Below are positions 3,276-34,577 of a stretch of DNA of 34,577 bases, piece after piece; positions within the stretch are counted from its first letter, which is position 1; every line of letters starts with the position of its first letter. The stretch is from Allobosea sp. (lineage in GTDB: Bacteria > Pseudomonadota > Alphaproteobacteria > Rhizobiales > Beijerinckiaceae). The notes beneath the pieces were generated by a model that saw nothing but the letters and a program-made list of their open reading frames with translations, searched no databases and had not been told where the DNA came from. A program made the translations under genes and the position numbers. The DNA lies in NCBI RefSeq assembly GCF_030694325.1, contig NZ_JAUXYO010000147.1, forward strand, positions 1-34,577. The letters are read 5' to 3'.

Positions 3276-4550
3276 TCAGCGCGTCACCTTCTCCAGCCAG
3301 TCGACCAGCGCCTGCCGGTCTTCAGCCGAACCGATCGTCTGCTCCGGCATCTTGGTGCCGGGCGTGTAGGCGTTGGGGCCGATCTCGAAGAGCTTTGCCA
3401 CCGTCTCCTTGGTCCAGACGATGTCCATCGTCTTGAAGGCCTCGGAATAGGCGTAGCCCGGCGCGCTGGCGATGCGGCGGCCGAAGATGCCGTGCAGCGT
3501 CGGCCCGGCGCGGTTGCCGTCCGACGGCGTCAGCGTGTGGCAGGCGGCGCAGGCGCGGAAAACCTGCGCGCCACGCACACCATTGAAGGCGGCCAGCACA
3601 TCGGCCCCGGCCCGCGGCACCACCGTGCCGATATGCTCGCCGGTGACGGCGTTCCAGCGGCGCACCAGCCGGTCGGCGCCGCCCGACAGGATCTGGCGGC
3701 CATCCGGCAGGAAGGCGAGCGACCAGACCGGCAGCCCGGGCCCGACCAGCGTCGCGCGGATGCGGCGTGCGGCCCGGTCGATCAGCGCGACCTGGCCGCG
3801 CAGGCCCCCGGCCGCGAGCGTCGTGCCGTCGGACGAGAGCGCCAGTGCGATCAGCGGTGTCTCGCCGACAGTCACCTCCCCGCGCGCCTCCCCATCCGGC
3901 CCGAAAAGACGCAGCCGCCCGTCTGCCGCGGCGACGGCGATCTCGCCATCGGCGGCCACGACCACGCCGTTCAGCGGCGCGGACAGCGTGACGATCCGGG
4001 GCGCGCCGGCATCCGCCGGCCAGATTCGCAGCGTCGCGTCATAGCCGGCGGTGACGAGGCCGCCGCCAGGCAGGAAGGCGACGCCGTTGACCGGCCCCTG
4101 ATGGCCCTCGAAGGCAACCGCGGCCCCGCCCCCGCGCGCCGTGACCCGCGCCGTTCCGTCCCAGGAGGCCGAGGCGATGCGGCGGCCATCGGCCGAGACT
4201 GCAAGCGCGGCCACGGGCCCCTTATGGCCCTCGATGATTTCGGCCGGAACGGCCGCCGCGCCGCGCCAGAGCGCGATGCGCCCATCCTCGGCACCGGTGG
4301 CAAAGCCGAGGCCGGGTACCGCCGCGACCGCGTTCACCGCGCCGTCATGAAAGCGCAGCACGGCCTCCGCCGTGCCGCCCGACAGGCTCCAGAGGATGGC
4401 CGACTGGTCGAAGGAGCCGGTCATGGCACTCGCCCCGTCAGGCGCGACCGCGATGGCCCGCACCGGCCCGCCATGACCGCGAAGTTCCTGAGCGGCGGCG
4501 GGGACAGCGAGGCAGGATAGAAGGATGAGGGGCTTCAGGAGGGATCGCAT
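3276..4550 (-). CDS. periplasmic WD40-propeller / cytochrome c fusion protein
   Basis: The protein is 424 aa and begins with a Sec-type signal peptide (MRSLLKPLILLSCLAVPAAA). Seven WD40-like repeats follow (for example LRGHGGPVRAIAVAPDG, IEGHKGPVAALAVSADG), enough for one seven-bladed propeller. The C-terminal 95 residues are a class I cytochrome c with a CAACH haem site at 334-338 and a likely axial Met at 401 (GTKMPE). It should therefore be an exported c-type cytochrome, with the propeller as a docking surface. Its redox partner is unknown; its position among formate-dehydrogenase accessory genes suggests a link to that respiratory chain, but this is inference. It is divergent from the TusA-like gene (101 bases between starts). 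Confidence 0.88.
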   Translation of the reverse strand: MRSLLKPLILLSCLAVPAAAQELRGHGGPVRAIAVAPDGASAMTGSFDQSAILWSLSGGTAEAVLRFHDGAVNAVAAVPGLGFATGAEDGRIALWRGAAAVPAEIIEGHKGPVAALAVSADGRRIASASWDGTARVTARGGGAAVAFEGHQGPVNGVAFLPGGGLVTAGYDATLRIWPADAGAPRIVTLSAPLNGVVVAADGEIAVAAADGRLRLFGPDGEARGEVTVGETPLIALALSSDGTTLAAGGLRGQVALIDRAARRIRATLVGPGLPVWSLAFLPDGRQILSGGADRLVRRWNAVTGEHIGTVVPRAGADVLAAFNGVRGAQVFRACAACHTLTPSDGNRAGPTLHGIFGRRIASAPGYAYSEAFKTMDIVWTKETVAKLFEIGPNAYTPGTKMPEQTIGSAEDRQALVDWLEKVTR

Positions 4551-4651
4551 CCGCCCATCATGCCGCCTCCCCGGCGCCGTGACAAAGGGGCCAGTTGCCC
4601 CGGTGCGACCGCCCAGCCTATGAAGCCCGCGCCCAGCAACCGGTTCCCGCC

Positions 4652-4882
4652 ATGACCGCCACGCCTCTCAATCTCCGCGGCCTGAAATGCCCCCTGCCGG
4701 CGCTGCGGGTCCGCAAGGCGCTGAAAGGGGCTGCTCCTGGTGCGCTGTTCCTGGTCGAATGCACCGATCCGATGGCGGCCATCGACATTCCCAACCTGAT
4801 GCGCGAAACCGGGGACACAATCGAGGAGAGCCGCAGCGACGGCGATCTGCTCGTCTTCCACATCCGCAAGGCGCCGGCCTGA
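4652..4882 (+). CDS. TusA/SirA-family sulfurtransferase-like protein
   Basis: This 76-aa protein has the family signature LRGLKCPLPALRVRKAL, with the single conserved cysteine at residue 13. That Cys in TusA-family proteins carries persulfide sulfur for tRNA thiolation, molybdenum-enzyme maturation or other sulfur relays. The start at 4652 gives the usual family length; the ORF-track start 57 bases upstream would add an unrelated Arg/Pro-rich leader. The stop is 24 bases before the TTG start of the Mrp-like ATPase, so the two are probably co-transcribed. A role in sulfur delivery to FdhD or to Fe-S assembly is attractive given the neighbours but is inferred. Which TusA subgroup it belongs to cannot be settled by eye. 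Confidence 0.85.
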   Translation: MTATPLNLRGLKCPLPALRVRKALKGAAPGALFLVECTDPMAAIDIPNLMRETGDTIEESRSDGDLLVFHIRKAPA

Positions 4883-10037: not shown

Positions 10038-11039
10038 TCAGGCTGCGGCGACGCGCCCGGCCTGGACCGCATGACAGGCGACGCCGTCGATCACCGGCGG
10101 ATTCTCGCTCCGGCAGCGGTCGAAGACGAGCGGGCAGCGCGGGTGGAAGGTGCAGCCCGAGGGCGGCGCAAGCGGGTTCGGGATCTCGCCCTTCACCGAT
10201 TGGCGGACCTTGCCGACCATCGCGACATCGGGCACCGCATCGAGCAGCATGCGCGTATAGGGGTGCCGCGGAGCGGAGAACAGGCTCTTGCCGTCGGACA
10301 CCTCGACGAGGCGGCCGAGATACATCACGCCGATGCGGCTCGCCATGTGCCGGACGACCGCGAGATTGTGCGAGATGAAGAGATAGGTCAGCCCCAGCCG
10401 CTCCTGCAGATCTCGCATCAGGTTGAGGATCTGGGCCTGGACCGAGACGTCGAGCGCCGAGGTCGGTTCGTCGCAGACGATGAACTCGGCGTCCGACGCG
10501 AGCGCGCGGGCGATCGCGATGCGCTGGCGCTGGCCACCCGAAAATTCGTGCGGAAACTTGGTCCTGTCATCGGGATGGAGTCCAACCAGCGTCAGAAGCT
10601 CTCCGACTCTTTCCGCGATCGCTGCCTCGCTCTCGATCAGGCTGAAGGCCCGGATCGGCTCGGCGATGATGCGCCCGACGCGCCAGCGCGGGTTCAGCGA
10701 GGCGTAAGGGTCCTGGAAGATCATCTGGATGCGCCGGCGCAGGCGCTGGCGATCATCGGCCGCCGCGGCGTCGTGCATCGAGACGCCGTCGATGGTGACC
10801 GTGCCGGCGGAGGGCGGCAGGAGGCCGACGACCATGCGCGCCACGGTCGACTTGCCGGAGCCGGATTCGCCGACCAGCGCGAAGGTCTCGCCCTTGCGGA
10901 TTTCGAAGGAGACGCCGTCGACCGCCTTTAGGAACTGGCGCGGCGCGCGCTCGATGACGCGGTTGAGCCAAGGCTTCGAGACATCGAAGACGCGCTTGAG
11001 GTCATGCACCTCGACCAGCGGGGCGGGATCGGCGGTCAT
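10038..11039 (-). CDS. peptide-type ABC importer ATPase, DppF/OppF-like (importer 1)
   Basis: This 333-aa protein is a full-length DppF/OppF ATPase, with Walker A GESGSGKST, Q-loop FQDPYASLNPRW, ABC signature SGGQRQRIAIARAL and Walker B FIVCDEPTSALD. The C-terminal oligopeptide-transporter extension has HPYTRMLLDAVP and a cysteine cluster (GCTFHPRCPLVFDRCRSENP ... ACH) like the [4Fe-4S]-binding motif described for some DppD/DppF proteins. It should pair with the DppD-like ATPase to drive import of peptides or related compounds. Its ATG overlaps the TGA of the dppD-like gene by four bases (ATGA), so translation is probably coupled. The ORF-track start at 11171 lies inside the upstream gene and is not used. 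Confidence 0.93.
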   Translation of the reverse strand: MTADPAPLVEVHDLKRVFDVSKPWLNRVIERAPRQFLKAVDGVSFEIRKGETFALVGESGSGKSTVARMVVGLLPPSAGTVTIDGVSMHDAAAADDRQRLRRRIQMIFQDPYASLNPRWRVGRIIAEPIRAFSLIESEAAIAERVGELLTLVGLHPDDRTKFPHEFSGGQRQRIAIARALASDAEFIVCDEPTSALDVSVQAQILNLMRDLQERLGLTYLFISHNLAVVRHMASRIGVMYLGRLVEVSDGKSLFSAPRHPYTRMLLDAVPDVAMVGKVRQSVKGEIPNPLAPPSGCTFHPRCPLVFDRCRSENPPVIDGVACHAVQAGRVAAA

Positions 11040-31173: not shown

Positions 31174-34100
31174 TTGGCCATCATCGCCGCGCTCCACCAC
31201 GTCACGCATTACCGCTATGACCGGCCGGTCACGCTCGGCCCCCAGATCATCCGCCTGCGGCCAGCGCCGCATTGCCGGGCGGCGATCAACAGCTATTCGC
31301 TGAAGGTCACCCCGGCCGAGCATTTCGTGAACTGGCAGCAGGATCCCAGCGGCAACTGGCTGGCGCGCTATGTCTTCCCGGAGCCGGTGCGCGAGTTCCG
31401 CATCGAGGTCGATCTCGTCACCGAGCTGTCGATCATCAATCCCTTCGACTTCTTCGTCGAGACCGATGCCGAGATCTTCCCTTTCGCCTATCCGGAGGAG
31501 CTGAGGGCCGAACTCGCGCCCTATCTGGTGACGGAGCCGGCCGGGCCGCTGCTCACCGACTTCCTCGCGACGGTGGCGCGCGAGCCCACCAACACCGTCA
31601 ACTTCGTCGTCGACCTCAACGCGCGCCTGGCCGGCACCATCGCCTACGGCATCCGCATGGAGCCGGGCGTGCAGGAGCCGGAGCACACGCTCGGCATCAA
31701 ATCCGGCTCCTGCCGGGACACGAGCTGGCTGCTGGTGCAGATCCTGCGGCATCTCGGGCTCGCGGCCCGCTTCGTCTCCGGCTACCTGATCCAGATGAAG
31801 GCCGACATCGACCCGCTCGAGGGGCCGCGCGGCACGGACAAGGACTTCACCGACCTCCACGCCTGGGCCGAGGTCTATATCCCCGGTGCCGGCTGGATCG
31901 GGCTCGATCCGACGTCGGGCCTGCTCACCGGCGAGGGCCATCTGCCACTGGCGGCGACGCCGCACTACCGCTCGGCCGCCCCCGTCTCGGGCCTGGCGAG
32001 CTATGCCGAGACGAGTTTCGACTTCGAGATGAGCGTGGCGCGCGTGCATGAGGTGCCGCGGATCACCCTGCCGTTCTCGGACGAGTCCTGGCAGCAGCTC
32101 GACGCGCTCGGCGAGCAGGTCGAGGCCGATCTCCGGGCCGGCGATGTGCGGCTAACCATGGGCGGCGAGCCGACCTTCGTCTCGGTCGATGACCAGACCG
32201 GGGAGGAATGGAACATCGCCGCCGTCGGGCCGACCAAGCGACAGCGGGCCGACGTGCTGATCCGGCGCCTGCGCGAGCGCTTCGCGCCCGGCGGCATGCT
32301 GCATTACGGCCAGGGCAAATGGTATCCCGGCGAGAGCCTGCCGCGCTGGGCCTTCGCGCTCTACTGGCGCGCCGATGGCGAGCCGATCTGGCGCGACGCG
32401 TCACTCATCGCTCGCGAACCGGGCGCGCCGACGGGGAGCGACCGCGAACTCGAAGCCGGCGCGACCATGGCCGATGCGGAAGCGCTGGCGGAGGGATTGT
32501 CCGACCGCCTCGGACTCGGCGCCGACCATGTCGTGCCGGCCTATGAGGACACCGGATACTGGCTGCTGAAGGAGGCGCAGCTTCCCGACAATGTCGATCC
32601 GCTCGACCCGCGACTCGCCGATCCGGAGGAGCGGGCGCGGATGCAGCAGGTCTTCCAGCTGGGCCTGGGCAAGCCGCGCGGCTACGTCATCCCGGTACAG
32701 CGTTGGCAAGCTCAAGCCGGCGACAAGCGCTGGCGCTCGGAGAAATGGAAGCTGCGGCGCGGCAAGCTCTTCCTGGTGCCGGGCGATTCGCCTGTCGGCT
32801 ACCGCCTGCCGCTCGGCTCGCTGCCCGTGGTGCCGAAGGCCGAGTATCCCCATATCCATCCGCAGGACCCGATGGAGGCGCGCCCGCCGCTGCCGCGCGC
32901 CGCCGGCGGCTTTAGCCCCGCCGCCGACCCGCCGATCCAGGTGGAGGCGCCCTCGCCCCCGCAGGCTTCCCCCCACCAGATGTCGCGCTCGGTCGAATCC
33001 GGCGGCGCCCCCGCGCAGGACCGGACCGAGCAGGAGATCGGTGGTGAGCATGTGCGCACCGCGATCAGCCTCGAGATCCGCGACAATGTCCTGTGCGTCT
33101 TCCTGCCGCCGGTGGAGCGGCTGGAGGACTATCTGGATCTCGTCGCCAGCGTCGAGGCGGTGGCGCGCGAGCGCAACCAGCCCGTCCATATCGAGGGCTA
33201 TGCACCGCCGCACGATCCGCGGCTGAACGTCGTCAAGGTCACGCCCGACCCCGGCGTCATCGAGGTCAACATCCACCCCGCGCGCAACTGGCGCGAGGCC
33301 GTCGAGATCACCCGCGGCGTCTATGAGGAGGCGCGGCAGTCGCGACTCTGCGCCGAGAAGTTCATGGTCGACGGGCGCCACACCGGCACCGGCGGCGGCA
33401 ACCATGTCGTGCTCGGCGGCGTCACCCCACCCGACTCGCCGTTCCTGCGCCGGCCGGACCTGCTGAAGAGCCTCGTGCTCTACTGGAACCGCCACCCCTC
33501 GCTGTCCTACCTGTTCTCGGGCCTGTTCATCGGCCCGACGAGCCAGGCGCCGCGGGCCGACGAAGCGCGTCACGAAGCGGTGTACGAACTCGAAATCGCG
33601 ATGCGCGAACTGCGCCGCCAGCAGCCGGGCACTGACACCCCGGTCGCACCGTGGCTCGTCGATCGCGTGTTCCGCAACCTGCTGATCGACGTCACCGGCA
33701 ACACGCACCGCGCCGAGTTCTGCATCGACAAGCTCTACGCGCCCGAAGGCGCGACGGGCCGCCTCGGTCTGCTCGAGCTGCGCGCGTTCGAAATGCCGCC
33801 GCATGCGCGAATGAGCCTCGCGCAGCAGCTGCTGATGCGCGCGCTCGTCGCGCGCTTCTGGCAGCGGCCCTACCAGCCGGCACGGCTCAAGCGCTGGGGC
33901 ACCGAGCTGCACGACCGTTTCATGCTGCCGCATTTCGTGTGGGACGATTTCCGCGACGTGCTCGCTGAGCTCGCCGACGCCGGCTATGCGCTCGATCCGG
34001 CGTGGTTCGCGCCGCATCTCGAGTTCCGCTTCCCGAAGCTCGGTGAATTCGCCACGCACAACGTCGACGTCGAACTGCGCGCGGCGCTCGAACCCTGGCA

Positions 34101-34575
34101 CGTGCTCGGCGAAGAGAACACCGGCGGCGGTACCGCGCGCTATGTCGACTCCTCACTCGAACGGCTGCAGGTGCGCGTGCGCGGCCTGGTCGAGGATCGG
34201 CATGTCGTGACCTGCAACGGTGAAGCACTGCCGCTGCACCCGACGGGCACCAACGGCGAGTTCGTCGCGGGTCTGCGTTACCGCGCGTGGCAGCCGCCGA
34301 GCTGCCTGCAGCCGACGATCGGCGTGCACACGCCGCTGACCTTCGATCTCGTCGACACCTGGCAGCACCGCTCGCTCGGCGGTTGCCAGTATCACGTGGT
34401 GCATCCGGGCGGCCGCAGCTACGACGACTTCCCCGTCAACGCCTTCGCGGCCGAAGCGCGGCGCCTCGCGCGCTTCTTCCGCTTCGGCCACACTCCCGGC
34501 GAAGTGCGCGTCGCGCCGGCGCAGCTGTCCCCGCACTACCCGTTCACGCTGGACTTGCGGCGCGGCGGCGGCTAA
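31174..34575 (+). CDS. transglutaminase-like / DUF2126 large protein, 3' third of foreign codon usage
   Basis: This 1133-aa protein begins with the bacterial transglutaminase N-terminal domain ([19 protein letters not shown]). A transglutaminase-like core follows, with a Cys180-His229-Asp245 triad ([26 protein letters not shown]). The rest (about 300-1130) is DUF2126, with [32 protein letters not shown] and [22 protein letters not shown]. The family is often encoded beside circularly permuted ATP-grasp/alpha-E proteins and may act in peptide or amide-bond chemistry; function is not settled. The start is TTG at 31174, supported by the family N-terminus. From about codon 790 codon usage changes sharply (hand count GAA:GAG 7:52 before, 15:8 after) although the frame is unbroken. 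The stop is TAA, two bases from the window end. Confidence 0.9.
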
Positions 34576-34577
34576 GT

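Follow-up and report, generated by a model that had tools for sequence, protein, structure and literature searches.

A DUF2126 gene at the end of the contig

The window analysed here, the whole stretch of 34,577 nt, is the entire contig C353 of a 4.63-Mb assembly in 357 contigs. Near its right end, a reading frame stays open between 31174 and a TAA at 34573-34575, and the contig ends two bases later. The protein read from this frame is 1133 aa long and matches three Pfam families above their gathering cut-offs: PF09899 (1339 bits, cut-off 27), PF08379 (92.9 bits, cut-off 27) and PF01841 (60.1 bits, cut-off 23). It thus belongs to the DUF2126 (PF09899) family and has transglutaminase-like domains at its N-terminus. 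Antisense frames also stay open in the GC-rich DNA of the DUF2126 loci. A first-pass annotation made from the sequence had described a frame and protein family that continue unbroken to a TAA two bases before the end, and this description is correct. It also placed a codon-usage break within the gene, and named two possible causes, recombination within the gene or an assembler joining two organisms.

Comparison with the closest congener (G009), with a genome of betaproteobacterial affinity (G050) and with another contig from this assembly (C96) divides the window as follows.

213-33534, no strand assigned: native part of C353, collinear with G009:C2 from 1555760 downwards at 90-93% identity (blastn synteny)
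31174-33534, + strand: native 5′ part of the host transglutaminase-like/DUF2126 gene, ~93% DNA identity to G009
33368-33554, + strand: native stretch repeated at the end of C96, with 3 mismatches (33436, 33494, 33544)
33535-33555, + strand: junction interval; the last native-supporting site is 33534, identity to C96 ends at 33554, and donor-specific sites begin at 33556
33556-34577, + strand: foreign 3′ part, including the stop codon at 34573-34575 and the final 2 bases; 93% identical in DNA and 98.5% in protein to G050:C44:17804-18835

The DUF2126 match of the window protein extends over both organisms' parts. At the opposite end of the window, a palindromic intergenic element at 123-205 recurs elsewhere in the genome, on other contigs, and also in G009, with 75-83% identity.

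Glutamate codon usage changes within the gene

The codon-usage break itself is real. On recount, Glu codons are 7 GAA and 52 GAG from 31174 to 33540, and 15 GAA and 8 GAG from 33541 to 34572, exactly as first counted (Fisher p = 3.5e-6). The maximum-likelihood change point for Glu codons lies between 33355 and 33562, with a likelihood ratio (LR) of 22.7 that was reached in 0 of 5000 permutations. Ala codons (GCC to GCG) and Gly codons shift modestly as well, while GC3 changes minimally. For a genome-wide view, we used 374 genes called in the window, in C96 and in those of 40 further contig stretches sampled from this genome that were readable. Their GAA fraction is 0.23, and the DUF2126 gene ranks first in within-gene Glu shift, ahead of a runner-up at LR 15.3. 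Within the genome the gene is an outlier, and host codon usage is uniform in sampled contigs of at least 3 kb.

A shift of this kind might in principle arise by chance or selection within a single native gene, with no foreign DNA involved, and moderate Glu shifts do exist in native genes. The gene at the end of contig C140 has an LR of 12.1, yet its identity to G009 is 91% all the way to the final base, which rules it out as a second chimera. Since this gene is shifted yet native, a codon shift alone is no proof of foreign DNA, and the proof lies in a changed closest relative.

The closest relative changes at a conserved motif

We made a codon alignment of the window gene, 20 congeners and three relatives belonging to other families within the host's order. 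Up to codon 796, DNA identity between the window gene and G009 is 91-95% when a variable linker is excluded, and ~93% overall. Past this codon, identity to G009 is 66-75% (~70% from 33556), and all 20 congeners drop together. Informative sites show the same switch, with 684 native and 64 donor sites before 33524, and 253 donor and 26 native sites after 33555. The switch is confined to 33535-33555, at most 21 bp, within a conserved motif of 10 residues. The break had been placed at a conserved segment, and the DNA junction falls there; of the interval first proposed (33360-34577), the part from 33535-33555 onward is foreign as claimed, whereas 33360-33534 is native, so that the proposed start was slightly early.

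The closest relative differs between the two sides of the junction: it is G009, of the same genus, before 33534 (93%), and G050 after 33556 (93%). These observations leave next to no probability for a codon change within one native gene, because identity to congeners falls from ~93% to 70% exactly where identity to G050 rises to 93%, and the congeners' own 3′ parts remain GAG-rich in the codon alignment. That explanation is refuted by the source switch at the junction.

The G050 genome carries an intact DUF2126 gene with 98.5-99% protein and 93% DNA identity to the 3′ part of the window. Base by base from 33555 to 34577, ~7% of sites differ, nearly all of them silent, and the match takes in the stop codon and both bases that follow it. 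The DUF2126 gene of G050 has GAA and GAG near parity in both parts (26/28 and 12/11). Because GAA is about as frequent as GAG throughout that gene, the codon shift in the window is largely donor usage. In a search with the 3′ protein, betaproteobacterial relatives came first, and G050 was then found in the family of the best hit. Plasmid searches returned distant relatives only, with at most 77% identity for the 3′ part, and indicate a beta-type donor; a scan of genome contigs with the 3′ protein gave a best match of 76% aa, and searching the genus of another scan match added nothing on the donor. The donor of the window tip is thus most likely a betaproteobacterium-like organism closely related to G050, judging from these comparisons. 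G050, which is 93% identical to the tip, is probably not the exact donor species, and the label 'betaproteobacterial' is based on the named relatives in the searches and on G050 sharing a family with the genome of L036. The beta-style donor that had been offered as a guess holds on the same grounds. L036 (CAMATU010000050.1) is a public MAG record titled 'Klebsiella pneumoniae'; the title looks wrong, as its neighbours in the DUF2126 hit list are betaproteobacteria.

The native 3′ end lies on a second contig

Contig C96 (L035, G000:C96; 10,779 bp) of the same assembly terminates inside the same DUF2126 gene. Its overlap with window 33368-33554 is near-exact and includes variants that are absent from G009 and from the compared betaproteobacterial genes. 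The three mismatches change S to A, H to P and Q to E at conserved residues, which looks like poor consensus in C96. Past the overlap, C96 is 95-97% identical to G009. In G009 coordinates, the window runs from 1555760 down to the gene, and C96 resumes at 1523155 and runs down to 1513843, collinear at 90-93% identity. The true continuation of the gene is thus present elsewhere in the assembly in native order. Because C96 overlaps the window and continues the G009 synteny, the host locus is a single native one that the assembly divides between C353 and C96. The genes that follow downstream on C96 are of the CP-ATP-grasp/alpha-E and transglutaminase types. C96 also carries, at 3322-4793, a 1.5-kb insertion that collinear G009 lacks; it contains an open frame of 353 aa that matches no Pfam family.

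The tip of C96 has yet another origin. Its outermost 111 bp (10669-10779) are 81% identical to G009 and 67% to G050, and its outer 120 bp find a match of up to 90% outside the host's family but within its order. On these identities, the 111-bp tip is neither host DNA nor G050-like, and comes from a third source. Derivation of the C96 tip from the window's donor is rejected by the 67% identity to G050.

A probable assembly join

Homologous recombination in nature could also have brought a betaproteobacterial 3′ part into the host gene, for instance by a single-crossover insertion that left the native 3′ end downstream. Family and frame run on without a gap, the junction falls where the two genes are nearly identical, a setting in which recombination would act too, and a single crossover would yield one hybrid on each side of the locus, which the layout resembles. 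However, a single crossover requires one donor in both hybrid genes, whereas the C96 tip is not G050-like and the two foreign tips have different sources; a replacement would not have kept the native 3′ end in native order. Host and donor also differ by ~30% of their DNA in this gene region, and homologous recombination is rare at such divergence. Donor flanks, that is, DNA of the G050 gene neighbourhood, were not found in the assembly, in which contigs below 3 kb were read as N and could hide short donor contigs. Taken together, natural recombination of this kind is very unlikely. Even less probable is a genuine cross-class intragenic DUF2126 recombinant in which the native 3′ part was retained beside a complex foreign insertion from two sources.

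When two contigs break off within one gene and their tips come from two different organisms, mis-joined mixed DNA is a good fit and natural recombination a poor one. We are thus highly confident, from sequence comparison and synteny, that contig C353 is chimeric, its last ~1 kb coming from a different organism through an assembler join at the conserved stretch. Of the two options first put forward, the assembler join is supported by the differing relatives and by the presence on C96 of the native 3′ part, in its native order, and the recombinant gene is disfavored by the different sources of the tips and the retained native end. The sequenced DNA would have been mixed, either as a metagenome bin or as a contaminated culture. 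During assembly, the host DUF2126 gene may have been cut at the very conserved stretch; C353 would then have been extended by ~1,020 bp of betaproteobacterium-like, G050-related DNA, while the host's real 3′ end was assigned to C96, whose tip would have gained 111 bp from a third organism. Mis-joining of multi-organism reads at hyperconserved segments would explain all the observations. Against an assembly chimera, the exact match to G050 at the junction, about 21-31 bp, is short for an assembler k-mer, although the match to the true donor may be longer. Joins of this kind are not general in this assembly, since the sampled contig end of C140 is clean.

The hybrid gene is most likely an artefact to be trimmed from ~33535 and not a recombinant gene, and the 1133-aa hybrid protein probably exists in neither organism. 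Studies that survey homology, recombination or gene transfer would be misled by it. Foreign contig tips of kilobase scale escape good quality scores, as in this assembly (99.5% complete, 1.5% contaminated). Codon usage that shifts within a gene close to the end of a contig can serve to flag such tips, provided that relatives are then checked.

Comparison with known systems

In the collection of papers searched, none mentions DUF2126 by name. A neighbourhood type that combines DUF2126 with CP-ATP-grasp, alpha-E and transglutaminase genes was described by Iyer et al. 2009, as cited in PMC5666114 and PMC6376114. Compared with the putative amidoligase genes (transglutaminase-like/DUF2126) of such neighbourhoods, the window gene has the same domain make-up, and the same downstream genes are found on C96 and in G050. 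The window copy differs in being a hybrid of two organisms' genes.

When a conserved region is longer than k, de Bruijn assemblers cannot phase through it (PMC11443906). Compared with the short-read chimeric contigs of mixed DNA considered there, the present case is deduced from sequence and synteny, and the exact stretch shared with the nearest donor genome is short. The signature is otherwise the same: the join lies at a conserved motif, the sources differ on either side, and the correct continuation is found on another contig that ends at the same place.
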